Notes: generated by a model from the sequence alone, not told the origin. Shown: positions 8,813 through 22,123, numbered from the stretch's first letter. The stretch: DNA of 32,087 nt from Candidatus Sungiibacteriota bacterium (GCA_016186095.1 JACPMG010000020.1:1-32087), one strand, 5' to 3'. Made by a program: numbers and translations.

Positions 8813-10483
8813 TCATCTTAAGAACTTAATTTTTGCTTCATTATGTTCTTCCAGAGTTTTTGAAAAAATAGTTTTGCCGTCGGGAGTGGAGAGATAATAG
8901 AGATACGGGGATTCTTTGGGATAAATCGCGGCGCGGATTGCGGAAAGTCCGGGATTCCCGATTGGTCCTTCGGGAAGTCCCCGATATTTGTAAGTATTGT
9001 ACGGCGAATCAATTTTCGTATCTTCCATCGAGATTTTATTATTTCCCTGATTCTTAATTCCTAATTCTTGCTTCTTGATGTAATCAATGGTCGCGTCAAC
9101 TTGAAGACCCATCCCAAGATCCAGCCGTTTCCATAAAATTCCGGAGACCAATGCGCGGTCTTCATCCGACACCACCTCCTTTTCAATCATAGAGGCCATT
9201 CTGACCACATCAAATACCGTAAGATTACGCCGGACTATTTCTTCCCGCAATTCAGGCGTCAGCTTCTTCCCAAAATTTTCAAGCATCTTCATGATAATGT
9301 CTTCTGTAGTCGCGTCTACAAAAATACGATAGGTATCGGGGAAAAGGTATCCTTCAAGCCCCTCATTCTTCGGCTTGCCGGACAAAAACTCGAATCTAGT
9401 CAACACCGAGTGTTGACTAGATTGGCTGGTATAGGCCCTAAATTCGTTAGGGGAGACAATTCCTTCGCGCCCAAGGTACTCGGCTATTTCTTGTGAGTTC
9501 CATCCCTCCGGAATGGTGATTACGCGTTCGTTTGTTCCGCCGAAGACAAGGTCGCGTACGATTTCCGGTATGGAAGCCTGCCCGAAGACATAATTCCCCG
9601 GTCTTAGATTAGCCGTTTGATTTTTAAGAGATATGTAGAGCACGAAAGTCCATTTGGAGCGGATGACGCCTTCTCGTTTTAAAATATGGGCGATTTTAGC
9701 CGCTCCCAGTCCCTCGGTGATTTCCACCGATCTTGAGCTTTTGTAGGAGGTATGGGGGCGGTAGAGCTCATTGGCGGCCAAGCTGGCCGCAAAGACAAAA
9801 GACAAAAGACAAAAGACAAAAAAATTATATCCAAACCTTTTATCTTTTATCTTTTCACTTTTATCTTGGAGTAATGCTATCACCTCCTCATCGCTTGTCT
9901 GTCCGAATTCCTCATAAAACGCGCCTACCGCTCCGTACCACTCCGGTTCCTCAAGTGCAATTACCTCGTCCGCCTCTTTTCGTAATTGGGCAAGCGAATC
10001 CGCGGCCCCATGAGGCACGGCCACTATTATTTTTTGGGGATTTTTTACGCGAACCGATTTGATAGCCGCTCGCATGGTAAAACCCGTGGCTATGCCATCG
10101 TCAACCAAAATCACAATTCTGCCGGTCACATCCGGATAGGGTTTATCGCCTCTGTATAATTTGAGCCGGCGCTCGGCCTCTTTTTTTTCTTTCTCAATTT
10201 CTCGCACGAGCCATTCTTGATCTATGTGGCGTGTCTCGTCCTCGTTAAAAACTCCCTCGCCGGTTTCGGTAATAGCGCCAACCGCGTACTCTGGGTTTCC
10301 CGGCGCTCCTATTTTTCTTGGCACCACGATGTCGAGCGGGAGCCCGAGTTCTTTCGAGACCTCATATCCAACCACAACTCCGCCTCGCGGAAGAGCCAGT
10401 ATAATCGTATCAGCAGCGGTTTTATATTTGGCGAGCGCTTGGGCCAATTTTTCTCCGGCCTCGCGGCGGTTTTTGAATATCAT
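8813..10483 (-). CDS. Phosphoribosyltransferase-MltG (endolytic transglycosylase) fusion
   Basis: 556 residues from the ATG at 10483; an upstream start would overlap lon. Residues 1-205 are a type I phosphoribosyltransferase with the PRPP loop VILVDDGIATGFT (124-136). Residues 218-237 form a transmembrane helix. Residues 238-556 are MltG/YceG, which cuts nascent peptidoglycan strands: EGYLFPDTY, catalytic Glu in ASMIEKEV (E434), GMGLQVDATIDY, SPYNTYKYRGLPEGPIGNPG and FSKTLEEHN. The two enzymes are normally unrelated. The join (207-230) is encoded by two heptamer arrays (9794-9865), so the fusion may be recent or switchable. The MltG part also contains a palindromic element (354-364) and another heptamer array (469-480). 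A TATAAT 6 bp before the ATG suggests a leaderless mRNA. Confidence 0.85.
   Translation of the reverse strand: MIFKNRREAGEKLAQALAKYKTAADTIILALPRGGVVVGYEVSKELGLPLDIVVPRKIGAPGNPEYAVGAITETGEGVFNEDETRHIDQEWLVREIEKEKKEAERRLKLYRGDKPYPDVTGRIVILVDDGIATGFTMRAAIKSVRVKNPQKIIVAVPHGAADSLAQLRKEADEVIALEEPEWYGAVGAFYEEFGQTSDEEVIALLQDKSEKIKDKRFGYNFFVFCLLSFVFAASLAANELYRPHTSYKSSRSVEITEGLGAAKIAHILKREGVIRSKWTFVLYISLKNQTANLRPGNYVFGQASIPEIVRDLVFGGTNERVITIPEGWNSQEIAEYLGREGIVSPNEFRAYTSQSSQHSVLTRFEFLSGKPKNEGLEGYLFPDTYRIFVDATTEDIIMKMLENFGKKLTPELREEIVRRNLTVFDVVRMASMIEKEVVSDEDRALVSGILWKRLDLGMGLQVDATIDYIKKQELGIKNQGNNKISMEDTKIDSPYNTYKYRGLPEGPIGNPGLSAIRAAIYPKESPYLYYLSTPDGKTIFSKTLEEHNEAKIKFLR
9045..9079. repeat. Heptamer array TCTTAAT-type inside mltG
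   Basis: Five units of 7 bp: CCCTGAT, TCTTAAT, TCCTAAT, TCTTGCT, TCTTGAT. It lies in the coding sequence between the DATIDY and SPYNTY motifs of MltG, a loop that tolerates length change. Confidence 0.6.
9393..9423. repeat. GTCAACAC palindrome, copy 1, inside mltG
   Basis: Perfect 14-bp arms, AATCTAGTCAACAC (9393-9406) and GTGTTGACTAGATT (9410-9423), around the loop CGA. It is translated as SSQHSVLTRF within the MltG domain. Other copies are at 20553-20585 and 27223-27249. Confidence 0.85.
9794..9865. repeat. Two heptamer arrays at the domain junction of the fusion gene
   Basis: GACAAAA repeated four times (9794-9821), then a 16-bp gap, then TTTTATC four times with one variant TTTTCAC (9838-9865). 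One unit gained or lost shifts the reading frame by one base. On the coding strand the arrays encode the charged linker (DKSEKIKDKR) and much of the membrane helix (FFVFCLLSFVF). Confidence 0.85.
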
Positions 10484-10489
10484 AAGCCG

Positions 10490-10495
10490 ATTATA
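10490..10495 (-). promoter_or_regulatory. -10 box of a likely leaderless promoter for the fusion gene
   Basis: TATAAT ends 6 bp before the ATG at 10483, so transcription would begin at or next to the start codon. The -35 region overlaps the lon terminator and is weak (TCGTAA). Confidence 0.45.
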
Positions 10496-10504
10496 AATTA
10501 AAGG

Positions 10505-10523
10505 GGAGCTCTTTACGAGCTCC
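10505..10523 (-). terminator. lon terminator overlapping the stop codon
   Basis: GGAGCTC (10505-10511) and GAGCTCC (10517-10523) enclose a 5-base loop. The lon stop codon (10513-10515) lies in the loop. On the minus strand the stem is followed by CCTTTAATTT, a poor U tract. Confidence 0.55.
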
Positions 10524-12966
10524 ACTCAACTTTTCCTTCAATAAACCGATTGATAATTTCATTGTTCGGGAAGAATTCAAGTAATGCTTGCCAGACAGAA
10601 TGGCAAGGAATGAATGTGATTCCTGGTTTTATTTCCGCAGGAACATCTTCAAGGTCGCGTTCGTTGTCTTTAGGTATAACAAATCGCTTTATTCCTGCGC
10701 GGTGAGCCGCAAGCGCTTTTTCTTTAAGTCCACCTATGGGTTCAAGAATTCCTAACTTCAGATCAATTTCGCCCGTAGCACCCACGTGCGGTTGTATGGA
10801 TGTTTGAGTCAGAAGGCTAAAGGCAGAGACAATGGCCGGGATTCCTGCCGAAGGACCGTCTTTGGGCGTAGCGCCATCTCGGATATGAATGTGGATATAG
10901 AATTCACCTTTCGTTTTTCTCTCTCCCCTCGGTTCATGGAGTATGCCACCTTCAAGCATTAGACAGTCGAAGGCGACATCAAAGGATTCTTCAATAAGAT
11001 TGTTTATTCTTTGTCTTGATCCGCCTGAGCCGCGAACGCCCGTCACTTTTATTTTGCGCCGACTTCTGCCGCGTTGCATCATGACCTCAACGTAGAAGAA
11101 GTGGCCGCCTTCGTCCGATACCGCGAACATAGGAACGCAGCCAACCGGCATATTGTCGAAACGTTGTTCAGGATAGATGCGTGGTTTCCCGGCGAAGAGG
11201 CGAAGATTTTGGGCGGTGATCTGTATTTCGGCAACGTCCCTGAAGTCTCCTTCTGCTGTACGCAGGGCCACTTTTCGGAATATTCTTCTGATTTCTCGCT
11301 CCACTCCCCTGACCCCAGCTTCCCGCGTGTATTCCTCGATAAGTCTTTTTAGGGCGTCATCGGCTAGGGAAACATCCAGAGGATCAAGGCCCTCGCGTTG
11401 AAGTGGAAGCCCTTGTTTTTCACGCTGTTTGGCCACCAGATATTTTCGGGCAATGGCAAGTTTTTCAGGTTGGGTGTAGCCCGGAAGAAGGATAATCTCC
11501 ATGCGATCTCGCAGAGGGCGGGGTATTGTTTCTACGTTGTTGGCCGTGCAGATAAAAAATACGTGCGAAAGATCAAACGGTACGTTGACAAAAATATCAA
11601 AGAATTCGTTATTTTGTTCCGGGTCGAGCACCTCGAGCAAAGCTGAGGCAGGATCACCTCTCCAATGCTCGCCTATTTTGTCTATCTCGTCTAGAACGAA
11701 CACGGGGTTTCTGCTGCCGGATTTCACAATGTGCTGGATAATTTGTCCCGGGTGGGTCCTTACATAGACCAGTCCGTGGCCTCGTATTTCGCCTACGTCA
11801 TACACTCCGCCAAGGGAAAGATGCGTGGATTTTCTGCCAAGGGCACGAGCAATGGATTTGCCAAGCGACGTTTTGCCAATACCGGGCGGGCCGACAAAGC
11901 AAAGAATATCGCCGCTTCCGGACGGTACGTTTTTGCGAACGGCAAGAAACTCCAGAATCTGTTCTTTTACCCTTTCCAGTCCCCAGTGATCTTCGTCCAG
12001 AATTGCTCTTGCCTGAGCAACGTCAGTGTTATCTTCGGTCTCGGCAAGGGCGAAAAGTTGAAGAAGGCAATCCAGATGGTTTTTTGCTCCGGAAATCTCT
12101 CCCGGGTATCCCCCGCGTTTCATAAGTCCAAGCTCTTTTTCAATTTCTATACGCGCCTCTTCGGGCAGAGAACTTTTTATTTCGTTATAACGTTCTTCAT
12201 ATGAATTTCTGGGAGCGTTTGGCGATTGTTTCGAAGAAGCGGCGAATATCTCGGGATTTTTAGACATATACTCCACTAGCTCAGCCAATCCACCAAGGCG
12301 TTTGGCAACATTGCGTTCGCTAAGAAGGTACCGGAGCCCCAGGAGTAACTTCTCGGATTTCTTTACGAACTTGTTTAATACAAAGTAGGCGTAACGATCA
12401 AGAAATTCACCGATTGTCTCTGCGGTTGCCATGCGTATGTCAAACTTCGCCGCATTAAGTTCTCCCCGCTCCACTTGCTGGATAATCGGTTGCGCCAGAG
12501 GCGAGAGTCTAGCAAGCTCTTTCTGGAAGGTTCTGGAGAGGAACTCTTCGCGGTTTGGCTTCTCCTCCGTGATTTGCTCCCATTCGGCGAATAAGATGCT
12601 GTCTTCTGAGTGCGCATTGTAAAGCTTCACGCGAGATTTAAGTTCAACAATCAGGTTCAGTACGCTCTCTGCTGTCTCCATTTTAGTCACGAGACCCAGT
12701 ATTCCTGTCTCATACACCGTTGGTTTTTCAGTCCCATCCTCAGCCTCTTCGTATCTTGTAACATGCCCTACCAGTATATACGGGACTATTTTTATGCCTT
12801 CTTCCACTGCCCGCAGGTACGGAATCTGAAGATTAAGATGTACGTACGGAAAAGGCACCGGCTGGGCTCCCTCGTTGGATCCCGCGGCTTCTTGATCTTC
12901 AAGTATCGCCAAAAGCAATTTTTGGGGTGGCGGCCCTTTGTGGTTTCCTTTGTCGCCCTTGGACAT
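10513..12966 (-). CDS. lon: ATP-dependent protease Lon
   Basis: 817 residues (family about 780-820). The N-terminal substrate-binding domain runs to about residue 300. The AAA+ domain carries Walker A GPPGIGKTSLGKS and Walker B VFVLDEIDKIG. The C-terminal serine protease has PKDGPSAG (Ser706) and GGLKEKALAAHRAG (Lys750), the Ser-Lys dyad. It degrades misfolded and regulatory proteins in the cytosol. The start is supported by a GAGGAG SD 9 bases upstream. The N-terminus carries an extra charged stretch (MSKGDKGNHKGPPPQK) before the first conserved strand. Its own promoter is at 13004-13031. Confidence 0.97.
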   Translation of the reverse strand: MSKGDKGNHKGPPPQKLLLAILEDQEAAGSNEGAQPVPFPYVHLNLQIPYLRAVEEGIKIVPYILVGHVTRYEEAEDGTEKPTVYETGILGLVTKMETAESVLNLIVELKSRVKLYNAHSEDSILFAEWEQITEEKPNREEFLSRTFQKELARLSPLAQPIIQQVERGELNAAKFDIRMATAETIGEFLDRYAYFVLNKFVKKSEKLLLGLRYLLSERNVAKRLGGLAELVEYMSKNPEIFAASSKQSPNAPRNSYEERYNEIKSSLPEEARIEIEKELGLMKRGGYPGEISGAKNHLDCLLQLFALAETEDNTDVAQARAILDEDHWGLERVKEQILEFLAVRKNVPSGSGDILCFVGPPGIGKTSLGKSIARALGRKSTHLSLGGVYDVGEIRGHGLVYVRTHPGQIIQHIVKSGSRNPVFVLDEIDKIGEHWRGDPASALLEVLDPEQNNEFFDIFVNVPFDLSHVFFICTANNVETIPRPLRDRMEIILLPGYTQPEKLAIARKYLVAKQREKQGLPLQREGLDPLDVSLADDALKRLIEEYTREAGVRGVEREIRRIFRKVALRTAEGDFRDVAEIQITAQNLRLFAGKPRIYPEQRFDNMPVGCVPMFAVSDEGGHFFYVEVMMQRGRSRRKIKVTGVRGSGGSRQRINNLIEESFDVAFDCLMLEGGILHEPRGERKTKGEFYIHIHIRDGATPKDGPSAGIPAIVSAFSLLTQTSIQPHVGATGEIDLKLGILEPIGGLKEKALAAHRAGIKRFVIPKDNERDLEDVPAEIKPGITFIPCHSVWQALLEFFPNNEIINRFIEGKVEWSS

Positions 12967-13304: not shown

Positions 13305-16300
13305 TTATAGGGGATCGGGCAGGAACTTTTCAAAATCTAGGGATTCGTTCCCATCGATGAATCGTTTCAGGTGGTCGTAGAGAAGTGGTCGGAAAAGAAT
13401 CGGTCCTGCGGCAGGACCTTCCGCCGGAAGGCCTACTAACGCAATGCCTGTGCTATTTGGCGGGAAGCCGAGTTCGCCGAAAGAGTCCGTGTGTGTGCTT
13501 GCGGGACCCATGAGATAGATCGCGTGATCCGTCACGCTGGCCGTATAGAAATGTTTATCGCCGTAAACTTTCAATGCTACCTTTTTCTGGAAGATGCGCG
13601 GGTAGTTTCCGCGCCGGAGATCGGTACGGATTGCCATTAGCAACGGATCGCCCCAGTTAACGTTCATGGCCGGAGGAGTATTGCGGAAGTCAAGCCCCCA
13701 TTCATATCCGCCGGGCGCCTGTATCGTGCCGAATGATATGAAATCATTTCCGTAGATAGGCCCTTTTACAAGCCGTTCAAGGAGCTCGTCTTTATCGTTC
13801 CAGAAAGGAACTGCCCTTAAAAGGTCGCGGAGGAAGATGGAAAGGATTCTGCCTTCAGCAAGATGTCGAAGGACGGTTTTCAGAGAATGATTGCCGGTAC
13901 CAAGATTAATCATACCAGGGTCGCGCCTATCGTAAGGGATGGCGACGCGATCGCGGGGAGTAAGTTCGCTGATCCCACGCAGTACTAGTCCCGACTGAAG
14001 AGTCCGGCGAAGAATGGCGTCAAAGATGTCAACGTTGGGCTTGAGATGACCATCGTGGAACTCTTCAAGCTGGTCGCCGAACCAATCAATACCACGTACG
14101 TTGAACTGCTGGAGCGCGAAGAGTACGCCTTGGGTATGCAGTTCGTCTTTCTTTTTGCTGTCGCGGGCCCGCTTAGACTTTTCGCGTATTTCGCCAAGGT
14201 GCTTCTCTATGAGCCAATAGGGCATCTGATTCGGGTGCGGTTGACGATAAGCGTTAAAGTGGTCGGCCTGATTAGGATCATCGCAGATTGCGTAGCCGTG
14301 AATCGGAGGTGGATTACTCGGTCCGTAACCTGCCGCACGGAGCATATGGAAAAATGCTTCTCCGGGACCCAAACGGACACCTCGATCTTTCCACAATGCT
14401 TCTCGGGCTTTACCACCGACATGTTTGTCTGTCTCAATTAGCCAGTACAAATACCTTGGTTTACTCTCAAGCTGCTTTTTCTTCCGGCGCTCATGTGCGG
14501 CCAATGCTTCAATGCGGATTGGACTTACGCTGATAACCCCGTTGATACAACTGACGAGCAGTACTCCGGGTTTGACCTGTTCGTTGCGGACGAGGCGGGC
14601 GAACTGTTCTTGGCTATCCACCACGGTTTTCAGTTTTTCTCGTACGAAGGCATCGTTTATGCAATCCGGCGCCACGCATACAAGGGCGGAGCCGCGCTGT
14701 CCTTCAGCATCAACTTCGCGCGCGGTTTCGGCGTAGCGAAGCGCATGCGGAGAACCAATTATAGTAAGGTCTGCCATCTCTTCTCGAATTACAGCCGGTC
14801 CGCAGCTATTGGTGAAGTCGGCAAGAAGAGTGTCCGTAACACCTAGGCGCCCCGGAATATGCAGCTTGACCATTTTGTCGCCTACTTTGTAGATGATATT
14901 GCCAAGACTGGTTACCTTGCATTTCGGGAGAATGCTTTCAAAGAGCATAGCCATGTGCCCGATGGCCCTTTTCCTGGAACGTTGCCAACGAGGATCGTTA
15001 ATGTTGGTGATTTTGGTGCGCTGGACGAGTTCTTTCAGCGCAGCGAGCTCCTGTTTGAGAACTTCGGCTCGGCGCGAAAGAGCTGCTGTATCGGTGGCGA
15101 TTTCGGCAAGTTCCGAGCTGGCTTCCTCGTCGCTGCCGCCAGCGGCCTGGAGACGCGCGTCAAGTATTTCACGCCGCTCGTCCAATTTACGGAGCTGTTT
15201 TACGGCTTCCGTATATGCGCTTTCTGCCGCAGCCGCTTCTGCTCTTGCCTCGGCCTGGTCCATCAACATAGAATGATGGTCAGTCCAGTAGGTAGCGGCG
15301 TCAACGATCTTAGAATCGTACGGACCGAAAGAAATGAAGATCGGACCCAAGTACTCCGGCACAGTACGAGTCGGGTTTTCTTCCTCGTCTTTATCGGGAC
15401 GCCAAGTAACCTTGTGATATCCTTTCATCACTGTTTTTAGGAGCTCTTCTCGCGTAACGTATATGATGCGTTCATTTTCTCCACCGTTCCTGCTGATCAT
15501 CTGTCTGACACGTTCTTGATACGCAGGCGCAAGAAGATCAAGATCTACGTCAATGCCGGACAGGAGCGCCCGCGTAACGCGCGACGGCCCCGCGGCTTTC
15601 AGGGTGTTGATAAAGGTCATGTTCATCATGAGGACAGCATCAACCTTGCGGTACTCCGCTTCGGCAAGAGCCCGCCGGACTGCGTTCGCTTTCATGATGG
15701 GGTCGTGGACGAGGCCGAGGTTGGCACCGTTAATGACAAGGATGCACCAGTTTTTTCCAGTAGTCGGTATGACGCATGGGTTGGCGAAAGACGTGTCAGG
15801 AAGCTCAAAGTTTTGCCAACGCAACAAGGCGTCTTCGCCCATGAAACGGTTAATGCCGGGTAGAGTTGGCGTAGGAAATAGATCTGGCCTTGTGATTTTG
15901 TTGGTAACGCCGCGCAACCACTCGGCCTTTTTCTCGACCATAGCAGGCGGGATGTACGGATGATAGCGCGTGAACCTTTCCAGCGGCATTTCGCGTCTGA
16001 TGATTTCAGTGAGCGTCGTGATCGTACCTTTGGGTCCTTCCGTCCAGACGACTCTGTTGAGAACAAAGAAAAACTTCTCTTTGGTCAATTCGTATTGCGA
16101 TCGCTCCATGCCTTCCCGGAACTCCTCTTTTAGTTTGGCATAGACCGCGTCAGGTCCGCCCTCTTCGGTCAGGACGCCACGCTGTATTAGCTCAACCATC
16201 CGCGCCTCAATTGCTTTTTCGATCTGACCAGAGGTTTTATACCCATGCGCAATCTGCACCCGGTTTCGCATCTCCCCAAAATATCTGGCGGCCTTGCTTA

Positions 16301-17123
16301 GACCCTGTTCGCTTATGGGCTCGCCAATGATTCGCGACCACTTATCGCAGTAGTCGGCATTGGTATGTCCCGGCAGGCGAAAATCGGAGCGAAAGTCAAC
16401 AAGAAATTCTTGTCTTTGTTCGGTCGTGAGCCGAGGCCACCAATTGACATTCGCTCCTTGCGGCGTACTGAGTTCGAGCGCAGCCGCTTTGGCGGCAGCA
16501 TATGTCTCTTCAGACATCCCCCAGCCAAGCGGGGCGGTCACCCCCTGTATTTCCAGAGCGGCAAGGCGGGCGTCGTCGAGATGCTCGAGGTGCTTATGCA
16601 ATGAATTCATCGTTACGCTTCCTTCAAACCCGGCATCTTTCAGCTTTTCGGCGGTTTCTTGCCAGAGGCGACGTAGTTCTCTCCTACCCCCAAGAGTATT
16701 GCGGGTGAACTGTGTAGACTGTCTTGCGGCTTCGGCAAGAATCCGGTCGTGCTCGTCAGTCCAGACAAGACTTTCAGGCCTAGTGCGACGGATTCTGTTT
16801 GCACTCATCATTTTCTCAATCCTCGCCTTAGAACAAGAACAGCGAGCCTCAAGATCAGGCCACGAATCGTCTTTATGTTCCCGAAGGTCCGCAATTCTTT
16901 CTGGAGTCCACTTTTTGGGGAGTTTGGTCTCATTGGGCGCCGAGTCCCTGTCGCGCCTGATGTCGTAGCGGCCCATCACTTCTCTCAGGGTTTTAACCGT
17001 ACGATGGCCGAACATCCTGCTCAACCTGCTCCACGGGTCGTTTCTATGTTCCTCAAGTTTCTTCAATCTCGCGCGGCCATTCTCCAACCAGTAAGTGTTG
17101 TCTGGGCTCACTCCGCTACTCAT
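13305..17123 (-). CDS. Giant protein: Myb/SANT-like repeats plus two tandem metallophosphoesterase-like halves
   Basis: 1272 residues. Residues 11-58 and 71-115 are two copies of a Trp-containing helix-turn-helix-like unit (WxxE..RL..L..HR.DPWSRL / WTPERIADLREHKDDSWPDL), each ending IRRxR. A third, weaker copy starts at WTDEHDRIL (121). Two segments then follow the calcineurin-like phosphoesterase motif order. First half: LVINGANLG (463-471; DxH lost), DAVLMMNMTFIN (495-506; GD lost), FISFGPYDSKI (596-606; GNHD altered) and LTIIGSPHA (787-795; GHxH altered). Second half: IETDKHVGG (896-904; DxH kept), YAICDDPNQADH (944-955), LGTGNHSLKT (1074-1083; GNH kept) and KVYGDKHFY (1185-1193; GxxH). 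A coiled coil (620-705) lies inside the first half. An AGGGAG SD precedes the ATG. The family assignment is by motif pattern only. Confidence 0.6.
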   Translation of the reverse strand: MSSGVSPDNTYWLENGRARLKKLEEHRNDPWSRLSRMFGHRTVKTLREVMGRYDIRRDRDSAPNETKLPKKWTPERIADLREHKDDSWPDLEARCSCSKARIEKMMSANRIRRTRPESLVWTDEHDRILAEAARQSTQFTRNTLGGRRELRRLWQETAEKLKDAGFEGSVTMNSLHKHLEHLDDARLAALEIQGVTAPLGWGMSEETYAAAKAAALELSTPQGANVNWWPRLTTEQRQEFLVDFRSDFRLPGHTNADYCDKWSRIIGEPISEQGLSKAARYFGEMRNRVQIAHGYKTSGQIEKAIEARMVELIQRGVLTEEGGPDAVYAKLKEEFREGMERSQYELTKEKFFFVLNRVVWTEGPKGTITTLTEIIRREMPLERFTRYHPYIPPAMVEKKAEWLRGVTNKITRPDLFPTPTLPGINRFMGEDALLRWQNFELPDTSFANPCVIPTTGKNWCILVINGANLGLVHDPIMKANAVRRALAEAEYRKVDAVLMMNMTFINTLKAAGPSRVTRALLSGIDVDLDLLAPAYQERVRQMISRNGGENERIIYVTREELLKTVMKGYHKVTWRPDKDEEENPTRTVPEYLGPIFISFGPYDSKIVDAATYWTDHHSMLMDQAEARAEAAAAESAYTEAVKQLRKLDERREILDARLQAAGGSDEEASSELAEIATDTAALSRRAEVLKQELAALKELVQRTKITNINDPRWQRSRKRAIGHMAMLFESILPKCKVTSLGNIIYKVGDKMVKLHIPGRLGVTDTLLADFTNSCGPAVIREEMADLTIIGSPHALRYAETAREVDAEGQRGSALVCVAPDCINDAFVREKLKTVVDSQEQFARLVRNEQVKPGVLLVSCINGVISVSPIRIEALAAHERRKKKQLESKPRYLYWLIETDKHVGGKAREALWKDRGVRLGPGEAFFHMLRAAGYGPSNPPPIHGYAICDDPNQADHFNAYRQPHPNQMPYWLIEKHLGEIREKSKRARDSKKKDELHTQGVLFALQQFNVRGIDWFGDQLEEFHDGHLKPNVDIFDAILRRTLQSGLVLRGISELTPRDRVAIPYDRRDPGMINLGTGNHSLKTVLRHLAEGRILSIFLRDLLRAVPFWNDKDELLERLVKGPIYGNDFISFGTIQAPGGYEWGLDFRNTPPAMNVNWGDPLLMAIRTDLRRGNYPRIFQKKVALKVYGDKHFYTASVTDHAIYLMGPASTHTDSFGELGFPPNSTGIALVGLPAEGPAAGPILFRPLLYDHLKRFIDGNESLDFEKFLPDPL

Positions 17124-17294: not shown

Positions 17295-17327
17295 AAAAAA
17301 GCCGCGAGTATTATGTACTCTGCGGTT
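17295..17327 (-). terminator. Terminator overlapping the stop codon of the ASCH-like gene
   Basis: CCGC and GAGTA pair with TACTC and GCGG (17302-17325, one bulge), followed by CTTTTTT on the minus strand. The stop codon (17311-17313) lies in the loop. Confidence 0.75.
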
Positions 17328-17742
17328 CTGTTTTTTGTCGGATTTGTTCCTGCAGATCCTCCGGCAGGAATCCGGCGATTGGCCGTCCGTTAATACGAGG
17401 AATTCTTAAGGCGTTTATGGCCGCTTCGCTTTCGTCGGTCAGCCCCGGGTAATATCCGCGCATAATTTCCATCATGTCGGTGTGAGACATCTCGGGATCA
17501 TTGAAGTGGGCCCACTTGGCGCGTTCCTCATCTGTAATATCCTTGAATCTTTTCACGACTGTGTCCTCCGTGACTTCTAAGAGAAGCGATATGCCATCCA
17601 TGAAGTGCCCCTCAATTAATTGTCCTTTTTTGAAATCGTTTGAACCTTCGCGATATATACGAAAATCCAGACATTCTTCTCCGGTAAGAAAATTTTGAAT
17701 AAGCCCCTCTACGAAAATCAGCCGCCATGCCTGCTTGGCCAT
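17311..17742 (-). CDS. ASCH/PUA-like domain protein (tentative)
   Basis: 143 residues. It opens with hydrophobic strands and a short FLTGEECLDFRIY motif, then FKKGQLIEGHF, a strand LLLEVTEDTVVKRF, and DITDEERAKW. The order F..fltG.k..e.R....f..Gq.i, then v..v..rf.dit.eea, resembles ASCH domains, PUA-fold modules that bind RNA or modified nucleosides. The C-terminal half (MSHTDMMEIMRGYYPG onwards) is less familiar. A strong SD (GGAGG, 8 bases before the ATG) and its own terminator mark it as an independent unit. The function is unproven. Confidence 0.6.
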   Translation of the reverse strand: MAKQAWRLIFVEGLIQNFLTGEECLDFRIYREGSNDFKKGQLIEGHFMDGISLLLEVTEDTVVKRFKDITDEERAKWAHFNDPEMSHTDMMEIMRGYYPGLTDESEAAINALRIPRINGRPIAGFLPEDLQEQIRQKTEPQST

Positions 17743-18175: not shown

Positions 18176-19399
18176 ATGGCAGAGGCCAAAAGTAGCTCCA
18201 AGAATCTGTGGCTTATTATCTTTCTGCTAGTTGTGGTTGCGGTCCAGATTATGTGGACTCCGCAGACAGCAGTGGCGATTTTCACAATGGCCGCTCTCGC
18301 CTATTTGCAGAATATTACCTTCTCTCTTACTAGTCGTGCACGTACGAGGAATCATGCGCCGTATCATTTCATCGCGTCTGTTAGTGCCAGCCTTGTATGG
18401 TTTTTGACTTTCCGCACTCTCGTGCTTGCGAAGATGTCCATCGAACTTGCGATTCCGTATACTTGCTTCACGGTTCTCGGCAGTTTGACTGGTGCGCAGC
18501 TCTCCATGTGGATCGAGAGGCACATCGGCGCTTTTGCGGACGAGGACACAATGTCTAAGGACGAGAGAGCGCTTCTTGAGCAGAGACGTATTGAGGAAAG
18601 AAAAAGACATTGGTATACCCGTGTCTGGTATTCCGGCGAAGGTAAGGTGAAAACGTCTCCCTTTTTCTGTATTTTTGGTACGCTGTCGGCAGTTCAGATG
18701 ATTTTCGCTTCGTTACCTCTCGGATGGACACTTATGTTGCTTCTTGCGGCGGGTTTCGTGAGGGACATGTCTTACGGAATGCGTACCTGGGTACAAAATA
18801 GAAACAATCAGTCGCTATTACTTGTAGTGAATATTTTTTCTGCCGGAGCGGAGTTTTTTGCATGGGGAGGGCTCTTTAATATGGAAATGCCATGGGCTCT
18901 TTTCCTGCCATACACCGCGGTGAGTACTGGCGGGAGTCTTTTTGGCACTTTCGTTGCCTCTTGGGCGGGCAAGAAACTTGGGGCATCTGCCGACGCGCAC
19001 GTGAAGAAGGGCGAGATGCCGAAGTTCAGCAGGATACCCTATTACATTCTTGGTCTTGTCATGGCCGTACAGCTCTTGTTCTTCAACCCTTACGGCATAT
19101 ATTTTGTCCTTCTTGTCATCGCGGGCAGTTTCATGCGGAGTGTGGCTTATGCCATGGTTTCCAGATCACGCAACAGAAATCATATGGGATACCACTATGT
19201 CTCTTCGCTCCTATCCAACGGCCTGTACTTTGTGACGCTTTACTGGTTTGTTCTGAAGAATCTTGATCCAGTTCTTTCCATACCATTTGTTTCGGCTTCC
19301 ATTATTGGTGGATTGCTTGCTGTGGAGGTCGCTATGCACGTAGAGAAGCGAATCGGAGCAGTTGCCGACGCGCATGCGCTTAAGCCCCAAAAAGCATAA
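18176..19399 (+). CDS. Membrane protein made of three copies of one unit
   Basis: 407 residues with an AGGGAG SD. I see about twelve hydrophobic segments in three blocks. Each block has a charged R.RNxxxxx loop: SRARTRNHAPYH (53-64), TWVQNRNNQSLL (204-215) and SRSRNRNHMGYHY (329-341). Each ends with GSLxG...E..IGAxAD: IGAFAD (117-122), LGASAD (268-273) and IGAVAD (393-398). The spacing is about 125 residues, with a 26-residue charged linker added after block one (DEDTMSKDERALLEQRR...). Blocks one and three keep RNHxxYH; the middle one has lost its histidines. No known transporter family was recognised. It is the first plus-strand gene of the island and ends at a strong terminator. Confidence 0.8.
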   Translation: MAEAKSSSKNLWLIIFLLVVVAVQIMWTPQTAVAIFTMAALAYLQNITFSLTSRARTRNHAPYHFIASVSASLVWFLTFRTLVLAKMSIELAIPYTCFTVLGSLTGAQLSMWIERHIGAFADEDTMSKDERALLEQRRIEERKRHWYTRVWYSGEGKVKTSPFFCIFGTLSAVQMIFASLPLGWTLMLLLAAGFVRDMSYGMRTWVQNRNNQSLLLVVNIFSAGAEFFAWGGLFNMEMPWALFLPYTAVSTGGSLFGTFVASWAGKKLGASADAHVKKGEMPKFSRIPYYILGLVMAVQLLFFNPYGIYFVLLVIAGSFMRSVAYAMVSRSRNRNHMGYHYVSSLLSNGLYFVTLYWFVLKNLDPVLSIPFVSASIIGGLLAVEVAMHVEKRIGAVADAHALKPQKA

Positions 19400-19441: not shown

Positions 19442-19470
19442 TTTGCATAGCGGCCGGTATTATGTATAAT
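19442..19470 (+). promoter_or_regulatory. Promoter of the lipoprotein gene
   Basis: TTTGCA (19442-19447), a 17-bp spacer and perfect TATAAT (19465-19470), 27 bp before the start codon. Confidence 0.75.
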
Positions 19471-19497
19471 GGCGTGGGATTCAGATGGAGGTCGAGA

Positions 19498-20022
19498 ATG
19501 TTCAGAAAGGATCTCGGTCTAGTAGCTCTTTTACTTCTTTTAACAGCATGTGCGACTAGCGGCGCTAAGCCAGCGCAGCCGAAACTTTATTTCGGTCAGC
19601 CGGTAGCCGCATATAACTCACAAACCGTTGAACGTCTTATGCCGGTTATCCAGAAGCAGTTTCCGGGATGGCACATTGAAAATCCTAATCAGTCCAAGCA
19701 CGATCAGGGATACCAGCGCTGGAAAGTTAAGACCGGCACGGGGATGGATTATTACTACAACGAGGTCTTTCCCACGATGAATGGCGGTATTTTTCTGCCA
19801 TTTCCTGACGGCGCCTGGAGCGCCGGGGCTTATAACGAGGCACTCAACATTGAGGGCCGAGGCAACCCCATATGGGAAGTTACGTCAGATGGAGCCATTA
19901 AACAGACGACCACGGAAAAAATGCGTCTCTGGGGCGGAGGAATCTTGAGCGTGCAACAGACGCGCGAGAGAAATAAAGTTCCCTATGATGAGTGGCTGAG
20001 GCGTTTTAAGGAAAAGAAATAA
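19498..20022 (+). CDS. Lipoprotein of unknown function
   Basis: 174 residues. The ATG at 19498 is chosen over an in-frame ATG at 19462, which lies inside the -10 box; GGAGG sits 7 bases before 19498. The N-terminus MFRKDLGLVALLLLLTAC is a textbook lipoprotein signal, with the LTAC lipobox and acylated Cys18. The mature part is a single domain rich in aromatics (YFGQPVAAYN, FPGWHIENPN, DYYYNEVFPTMNGG, GAWSAGAYNEALN); no family recognised. It has its own promoter and terminator. If expressed, it would need the lipoprotein-processing enzymes, so the altered Lnt homologue at 2583-4004 is relevant. Confidence 0.8.
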   Translation: MFRKDLGLVALLLLLTACATSGAKPAQPKLYFGQPVAAYNSQTVERLMPVIQKQFPGWHIENPNQSKHDQGYQRWKVKTGTGMDYYYNEVFPTMNGGIFLPFPDGAWSAGAYNEALNIEGRGNPIWEVTSDGAIKQTTTEKMRLWGGGILSVQQTRERNKVPYDEWLRRFKEKK

Positions 20023-20596: not shown

Positions 20597-22123
20597 TTAT
20601 CCATACGGCTTTCCTTCCTCGTATCCCGACGTGGTCTGCCTTCGGAATTTTGCTTTTTGACGATATTCCTCCAGCGTCCAGGCGCCGACGTAGCTCATGG
20701 AGGAGCGAAGATAGCTCATAAGCTCGTGTACCACCGCAGAAACTTCTCCTTTGTAGCGGACGCGGCTGGGCACGCCCTCGGACGCGCGTATTCGTTCGCT
20801 CTCTTCCCGATCCAGGCGCGATAGTTGGAATTCCAGCGAGGCCGAGCCGCGATAAATTTTCCATTTTTCTCCATCCTCATAAAATGGCTGTCCGGGAGTT
20901 TCATCCGTGCCCGCAAGCATCCAGCCAATCATCACCGAAGATGCGCCTGCGGCTAGCGCTTTGCAAAAATGCGCTCCTCCCCGTATGCCGCCATCGGCAA
21001 TCACCGGAATTCCATATTTTTGGGCAACGGCGACGCACTCCGCAACCGCTGTGATTTGCGGCGTACCCACCCCCGGGCCTTCCCGGGTTTTGCATACAGC
21101 GCCCGGGCCAATACCTACTTTTATTCCGTCCGCTCCGGATTCAATGAGCATTAGAGCGCCCTCCGGAGTATCAATATTGCCGGCCACAATCGGGATGTCC
21201 CCCAAAGTAGCGCGCAAATTTTTAATTGCGTCCTCAAGCCGGGTGGAAAATCCCCGCGCCGTATCAATTAAAATTACATCTGCTCCGGCGCGTACAAGCT
21301 CCTCCGCTTCTTTGGAAAAACTTTTTCCTATTCCTACGGTTGCTCCGACCATCAGATGTCCTTTGGCATCTCGCGACGCCTGGGGGAACTGTTCAATTTT
21401 TAAAAGATCCTTGGCGGCTATGAGTCCGGCTACGCGGGCGTTCTCGTCCACCAGGGGCAGCTTTTCAATTTTATTTTTTTTAAGAATCAAGCGCGCCTGT
21501 TCTAGAGTCGTCCCGCGAGGCGCGGTGATCAGGGGCGCGTGCGTCATTACTTCCGCCACCCTTTTTTCCAGAAGCGATTCAAAACGGATGTCGCGCGAAG
21601 TTATGATGCCGATAAGTTTTTCGGACGAAGGGTCAATCACTAGAAGGCCGGATACCTGCATGGAGTCCATAATTTCCTTGGCTTCACGCAGCGTAGCTTC
21701 CGGGTTTATATTAAGGGGATTTTCAATTATTCCGCTGTCGGCGCGTTTCACTTTTTTTACCTCCTCCACGCGCTTTTCTATCGGCAAGAATTGATGGATA
21801 AATCCAAGGCCGCCTAAACGTGCCAAGGCAATAGCCATCCGCGACTCGGTGATGGTGTCCATGTTGGCCGAGACCAGCGGAGTGCTAAGAAAAATATCGC
21901 GAGCCAGATGCGAGCGAGTGTCTATGATAGAACTTCGGGAGGGTATATCGGACTTGAAATCTAAAATTGTGACATCATCAAATGTCACGGCAATGTCTTG
22001 GGGCAGGCCTTTTTGGATGAGGTAGGAATTTACGAGCGAGTGAATATCCGGTTTGGGCATCGCGGTTGCTTTGAACGCGTTGTCATTGAGTTCCAATACT
22101 TCGTCTTCCATACAAATAAACAT
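20597..22123 (-). CDS. guaB: CBS-domain IMP dehydrogenase/GMP reductase family protein
   Basis: 508 residues. The (beta/alpha)8 barrel is split by two CBS domains (about 135-250). Family signatures are present: VTFDDVTIL, SANMDTITE, MVGATVGIG, LIDTARG and GIKVGIGPGAVCKTREGPG with the catalytic Cys. IMP dehydrogenase makes XMP from IMP; GMP reductase runs GMP to IMP. The loop differs from the usual SICTTR (Ala and Lys here). After YRGSAS the short segment leading to ERIRASEG resembles GMP reductase, the IMPDH Arg-Tyr (RYF) dyad is not visible, and the C-terminus SGYEEGKP recalls mycobacterial GuaB1. The reaction is therefore uncertain. It overlaps the upstream methyltransferase gene by 41 bp. 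A start at 22111 is also possible. Confidence 0.85.
   Translation of the reverse strand: MFICMEDEVLELNDNAFKATAMPKPDIHSLVNSYLIQKGLPQDIAVTFDDVTILDFKSDIPSRSSIIDTRSHLARDIFLSTPLVSANMDTITESRMAIALARLGGLGFIHQFLPIEKRVEEVKKVKRADSGIIENPLNINPEATLREAKEIMDSMQVSGLLVIDPSSEKLIGIITSRDIRFESLLEKRVAEVMTHAPLITAPRGTTLEQARLILKKNKIEKLPLVDENARVAGLIAAKDLLKIEQFPQASRDAKGHLMVGATVGIGKSFSKEAEELVRAGADVILIDTARGFSTRLEDAIKNLRATLGDIPIVAGNIDTPEGALMLIESGADGIKVGIGPGAVCKTREGPGVGTPQITAVAECVAVAQKYGIPVIADGGIRGGAHFCKALAAGASSVMIGWMLAGTDETPGQPFYEDGEKWKIYRGSASLEFQLSRLDREESERIRASEGVPSRVRYKGEVSAVVHELMSYLRSSMSYVGAWTLEEYRQKAKFRRQTTSGYEEGKPYG

Follow-up and report, generated by a model that had tools for sequence, protein, structure and literature searches.

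What becomes of a phosphoesterase domain that has lost its metal ligands when it is fused to one that has kept them? This question is raised by a 1272-residue protein encoded in a stretch of 32,087 nucleotides from a Candidatus Sungiibacteriota bacterium (GCA_016186095.1 JACPMG010000020.1:1-32087), the whole of which we call the window. A first interpretation, made without database searches (the sequence-only reading), had proposed that the protein consists of two tandem phosphoesterase-like halves, the first catalytically stripped, and that it matches no known phosphoesterase. We found that the open reading frame (ORF) is indeed intact and occupies positions 13305-17123 on the minus strand, a strand that the earlier reading had left out; the gene, hereafter the big gene, is present in one copy in the window's genome (680 kb, 32 contigs). 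Homologue alignments and predicted structures together indicate that a conserved pseudo-domain and a putatively active domain of the calcineurin-like phosphoesterase (CPE) superfamily are joined in one chain. Two clades of the family, A and B, are distinguished throughout, the window protein belonging to clade A.

Metal-ligand motifs and predicted folds of the two halves

Motifs were counted over 32 homologues sharing 15-47% identity with the window protein. In the second half (half 2), motif I has D899 in 25/32 sequences (Cys in the other 7) and H901 in 29 (Gln in 3), while D949 of motif II and H1079 of motif III are found in all 32 and N1078 in 31. Motif V shows D1189 in 29 (His in 3) and H1191 in 29 (Asp in 3), giving GDxH in 29/32 and GHxD in 3/32; a motif IV His occurs mainly in clade B and is not conserved in clade A. 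Judged by these residues, half 2 carries a near-complete set of the motifs DxH, GD, GNH and GHxH by which members of the CPE superfamily are recognized. The motif strings quoted by the sequence-only reading all lie where it had placed them, and the retention of the half 2 ligands in 25-32 of the 32 homologues shows that they are more than chance resemblances and that the second half keeps its metal motifs, as claimed; the DD pair of motif II was not among them. If half 2 were nevertheless enzymatically inactive, the whole protein would be a structural DNA-binding scaffold, a view that would agree with the lack of the motif IV His in most of clade A and with the Asp in place of the first motif V His in 29/32. 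However, a dead site would not be expected to retain D949, H1079 and N1078 in 31-32 of the 32 sequences, or its residues at motifs I and V in 25-29, and we regard this explanation as very improbable.

The first half (half 1) presents the opposite picture, its motif positions having been assigned from the order of predicted strands and by inspection rather than by superposition. At motif I, Asp is found in 0/32 and His in 1/32, whereas N465 is kept in 30 and G470 in 32. At motif II, Asp is again found in 0/32, and the residue following G/N is never D. At motif III, all 32 sequences read G-x-x-[DE] (G600 in 32, D/E603 in 32), the N and H in between having been lost. At motif V, most clade A homologues have CHP[YHF] (His in 18/32), while the window protein reads GSPH. 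The ligand loss is thus complete for motifs I-III and not for motif V, so that the earlier claim of a stripped first half stands for the former and needs qualifying for the latter. The motif positions are therefore conserved in both halves, half 2 by its ligands and half 1 by a pattern of its own, and the alignment argues that half 1 is a pseudo-domain, dead through ligand loss in motifs I-III. Purifying selection on it seems to be as strong as on half 2, with dN/dS values of 0.086 and 0.085, respectively, in the one close pair on which the comparison rests (L056/L057), other pairs being mostly saturated at synonymous sites.

The core of the protein (residues 430-1272, both halves) was modelled with AlphaFold2 from the 32-sequence alignment, with a mean pLDDT of 88.8 and a pTM of 0.87. 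In a fold search against the PDB, the core matched the PolD small subunit DP1 (E=1e-4), Mre11 (E=9e-4) and Rv0805 (E=5e-3), and also SapH, an Ap4A hydrolase/phosphodiesterase. The TM-scores of these matches are low (about 0.2 on the query and 0.3-0.4 on the target), plausibly because the query comprises two domains and a long hairpin. In viral structures, the core was best matched by, among others, CPEs of phages and proteins that carry the annotation 'DNA polymerase II small subunit'. When half 1 was modelled alone (pLDDT 90.4), its top match was Mre11 (7zr1, probability 1.00, E=8e-4), with probabilities of 0.75-0.95 for the remaining Mre11 entries; the matches also comprise 8bah, 9q9j, 4fbq and chain F of Pol zeta (6v8p_F, probability 0.84), a catalytically dead B-subunit. 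Most other entries of the list are proteins with coiled coils, LSD1 and dynein among them. Half 1 is accordingly predicted to adopt the CPE fold, and half 2 is a putative CPE on the basis of the joint model, the order of its predicted elements and its motifs. Both the tandem pseudo-enzyme and enzyme pair proposed earlier and its phosphoesterase folds are supported by these models, for half 2 through the joint model. The coiled coil inserted in the first half is seen in both of them and begins directly past the motif III position of half 1. Since hhalign detected no profile similarity between the two halves, an internal duplication can be inferred from the fold only. By eye, the 'NGxNLG' at the half 1 motif I position looks like the beginning of 3-dehydroquinase, a reading that we rejected because the predicted fold is that of a CPE.

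The N-terminal extensions differ among homologues: the window protein, L050 and L078 have about 170 residues of Myb-like repeats, and the others have shorter, different extensions. Matches to Myb/SANT families in Pfam are weak, with Myb_DNA-bind_4 at E=0.2 and Myb_DNA-binding at E=1.4 for the window protein and Myb_DNA-bind_3 at E=0.0038 for L078. The Myb/SANT-like repeats of the sequence-only reading are plausible, although all of these matches fall below the Pfam threshold. The positions of all features are given in Table 1.

Table 1. Positions in the window of the big gene, its parts and its neighbours.
Feature	Residues	Description	Positions	Strand
Big gene product	1272 aa	helical/Myb-like N-terminus; half 1, a degenerate CPE interrupted by a coiled coil; half 2, a putatively active CPE	13305..17123	-
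Myb/SANT- or helix-turn-helix-like repeats	1-170	common to homologues L050 and L078; weak Pfam support	16614..17123	-
N-terminal region	226-430	C-terminal part (from about residue 300) common to clade A homologues	15834..16448	-
Half 1	440-885	CPE fold by prediction; metal ligands of motifs I-III lost	14469..15806	-
Coiled-coil hairpin	about 601-731	within half 1	14931..15323	-
Half 1 motif I position	464-470	INGANLG (DxHxG expected)	15714..15734	-
Half 1 motif II position		LMMNMT (GD expected), within LMMNMTFIN 498-506	15615..15632	-
Half 1 motif III position		FGPYDSK (GNHD/E expected), within FISFGPYDSKI 596-606	15309..15329	-
Half 1 motif V position		IIGSPHAL (GHxH expected); IIGSPHA is 788-794	14739..14762	-
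Half 2	886-1272	putative CPE fold, near-complete ligand set	13308..14468	-
Half 2 motif I	899-903	DKHVG (DKHVGG 899-904)	14415..14429	-
Half 2 motif II	948-949	DD (D949 invariant)	14277..14282	-
Half 2 motif III	1077-1079	GNH, within GTGNHS 1075-1080	13887..13895	-
Half 2 motif V	1188-1191	GDKH (GDKHF 1188-1192); first His replaced by Asp	13551..13562	-
Membrane protein	407 aa	three units; hydrophobic repeats bearing SRxxxRn..YH; oriented divergently to the big gene's operon	18176..19399	+
143-aa protein	143 aa	upstream of the big gene, same strand; ASCH/PUA-like by eye, no database match	17311..17742	-
186-aa protein	186 aa	putative lipoprotein; nucleoside 2-deoxyribosyltransferase-like signature by eye	19462..20022	+
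guaB		encodes IMP dehydrogenase; recurs as a neighbour of the big gene and co-occurs with it	20597..22123	-

Distribution and inheritance of the family

Profile searches recovered homologues in 33/384 genomes of the window's class, most likely the Parcubacteria, with carriers in 14/45 genomes of one order and in 7/23 of the window's own order. A phylum-wide sample gave the window itself and one marginal 53-residue match, nothing more. A protein search found 9 carriers among 55 relatives, and a collection-wide scan of GTDB contigs yielded 18 loci, with titles naming Sungiibacteriota, Yanofskybacteria, Tagabacteria, Zambryskibacteria, Lloydbacteria, Azambacteria, 'Parcubacteria group' and bacterium/Patescibacteria metagenome-assembled genomes. 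The big gene belongs to a real family of giant proteins, which is carried by a minority of tiny uncultured Parcubacteria and is almost absent from the rest of the phylum as sampled.

Single-sequence and profile searches of Pfam, NCBIfam, PHROGs, PADLOC and PDB sequences gave no family match beyond coiled-coil noise, and neither Pfam Metallophos (PF00149) nor related models scored above their curated cut-offs. That no curated family recognizes the protein agrees with the earlier statement that it matches no known phosphoesterase. A literature search on tandem or inactive metallophosphoesterases gave nothing relevant; the protein is predicted to have a known fold, that of the CPEs, in an arrangement that we did not find described in the literature searched. 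No homologue was found in phage and plasmid collections (tblastn) or in the IMG/VR viral collection (pattern scans). A viral or prophage origin, which we considered, is not supported, the neighbours being housekeeping genes and the family being absent from the viral collections.

The tree separates clade A (22 rows, window included) from clade B (10 rows). Bacterial families are intermixed within clade A, for example in a strongly supported group uniting G012 (f1), G188 (f39) and G734 (f56), which suggests lateral transfer within this clade. G007, from the same bacterial family as the window, has a clade B copy between lon and a methyltransferase gene, the same neighbours as those of the window's clade A copy. 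In L076 (G091) and in L077/L047/L048 (G373), two or three ORFs share what is elsewhere one big gene, and these copies may be in decay.

The linked membrane protein and the lon-guaB interval

A neighbour tightly linked to the big gene encodes a membrane protein, which adjoins it in 17 loci, with further ones in addition. A profile search of the 384 class genomes found this protein at full or near full length in 16, all 16 of which carry the big gene (Fisher p=1.5e-19), and two weak partial matches outside them. All of its carriers belong to clade A. Relatives of the membrane protein are also found in a few Bacteroidetes phages, as single units only, namely in Tenacibaculum and Cellulophaga phages (L083:5998-6267); in Tenacibaculum phage Larrie, the single-unit relative adjoins replication genes. 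Two smaller neighbours recur less often. A relative of the 143-aa protein also adjoins the big gene in L079:2510-2905, making two loci in all. The family of the 186-aa protein is found near the big gene in 8 loci, including forms without a lipoprotein signal, and no database match supports its deoxyribosyltransferase-like signature. Elsewhere in the window (8813-10525, minus strand), a phosphoribosyltransferase and an MltG-like protein appear by eye to be fused in one ORF, as they are in the relative G003 (L119:10570-12228).

A second association concerns guaB, which lies within a few genes of the big gene in many loci and is present in 26/33 big-gene carriers vs 75/351 other genomes (p=5e-11), a co-occurrence that is uncorrected for phylogeny and may reflect lineage or genome reduction. 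The main rival to the function that we favour below is built on it, because Ap4A binds and inhibits IMP dehydrogenase in Bacillus subtilis (PMC10148737): the protein would act as a phosphodiesterase on an alarmone or signal of nucleotide type, such as a dinucleoside polyphosphate, one that governs the synthesis of guanine nucleotides by way of IMP dehydrogenase, and the dead half would be the sensor. The likeness of the core to SapH and Rv0805 is in keeping with such a role. On the other hand, lineage confounds the co-occurrence, as does the retention of guaB in less reduced genomes, and guaB is missing, at the threshold applied, from 7/33 carriers. The fold search, moreover, is led by nucleases, and the N-terminus has the appearance of a DNA-binding region; we consider the alarmone explanation unlikely.

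The interval between lon and guaB is not always occupied by this family. In the complete genome G003, it holds an 854-aa protein, P0002 (L119:5442-8006), in place of the window's island. Its C-terminal half is CPE-like (CxH/GD/GNHD/HP/NFH), its N-terminal half has no ligands, and it contains a winged helix. The P0002 family, known from sequence, occurs in 32/286 class genomes, with guaB in 24 of these 32 carriers. It resembles the window's family in length, in its N-terminal helical region, in a ligand-less half 1 followed by a ligand-bearing half 2, in the lon-guaB slot and in the co-occurrence with guaB. However, the winged helix lies between its halves, where the window's family has a coiled coil instead, and hhalign found no profile similarity between the two families, so that homology between them gained no support. 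They co-occur in 0 genomes, for which the chance P is about 0.05 if the sample composition of the 286 genomes is assumed.

The occupation of one slot in relatives by two unrelated-looking tandem proteins, of which no genome has both, would fit anti-phage or anti-plasmid defence, in which the CPE protein would sense or cut invading DNA with the three-unit membrane protein as effector, or the reverse. The big gene is also patchy, fast-diverging and apparently laterally spread, with a tightly linked partner. However, there is no PADLOC match, no integrase or other defence gene was identified beside the big gene, and a housekeeping neighbourhood that recurs across families fits an old resident locus equally well. 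We find defence, so defined, doubtful, to about the same degree as the alarmone explanation. A broader proposal, tentative and somewhat less improbable than either, is that at least two sequence-unrelated tandem dead and active CPE families compete for a guaB/lon/mltG slot in Parcubacteria, and that clade A with its dedicated membrane protein could form a previously unknown membrane-coupled module for nucleic-acid processing, in defence or DNA uptake.

Proposed function and closest known systems

The reading that we favour, and to which we give about as much credence as doubt, is that the protein is a metallo-phosphoesterase specific to Parcubacteria and directed at DNA, formed by the fusion of a metal-binding CPE to a degenerate one that would serve as its scaffold, and that it is coupled to the membrane in clade A; both substrate and role are inferred. 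Half 2 would be a Mn-type nuclease or phosphodiesterase cleaving a phosphodiester with two metals, as suggested by the best fold matches of the core, PolD DP1 and Mre11. Half 1 would act as a scaffold or clamp, by analogy with the dead phosphodiesterase domains that act as scaffolds in DNA polymerase B-subunits (PMC4996933). The coiled-coil hairpin and the Myb-like N-terminus could be what keeps DNA or a partner in place. In clade A, the membrane protein could anchor the enzyme or be under its control, so that foreign or imported nucleic acid might be cut at the membrane.

Several observations weigh against the nucleic-acid nuclease so described. No sequence-level match to any nuclease was found in sequence or profile searches, and, with the fold as sole guide, a small nucleotide might be the substrate. 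Most of clade A has no motif IV His, and GDxH stands at motif V instead of GHxH, so that the second metal site may differ. Clade B members have no membrane protein, and membrane coupling is therefore not essential to the core. A nuclease role leaves the guaB co-occurrence unexplained, and two copies (G091, G373) seem split or decayed. Whatever its role, the Parcubacteria accessory genome gains a family that is unnamed in the libraries searched, and the linked membrane protein makes a two-gene function directly testable.

Among known systems, DP1, the archaeal 3'-5' proofreading exonuclease subunit, is the top PDB fold match of the core and shares its predicted fold and dimetal motifs. DP1 has a single phosphodiesterase domain along with an OB domain, and DP2 as partner, whereas two CPE domains, one of them dead, and a coiled coil are found here; no sequence similarity to DP1 was detected, and no polymerase subunit was identified near the big gene. 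Mre11/SbcD, which shares the predicted CPE fold, gave the top match of half 1 modelled by itself and ranks with the best matches of the core. Mre11 works as an active homodimer with a separate coiled-coil ATPase, Rad50/SbcC, whereas in the big protein the hairpin sits inside the dead CPE half; no sequence match to Mre11/SbcD was found, and no Rad50/SbcC-type ATPase was identified among the window's predicted genes. The eukaryotic DNA polymerase B-subunits retain a dead CPE domain as a scaffold (6v8p_F match; PMC4996933), but as a separate subunit with no fusion to an active CPE. With a pseudo-enzyme and its putatively active relative in one chain, the protein described here lends itself naturally to the question of how a dead phosphoesterase domain serves a live one, the same question that is posed by the polymerase B-subunits.

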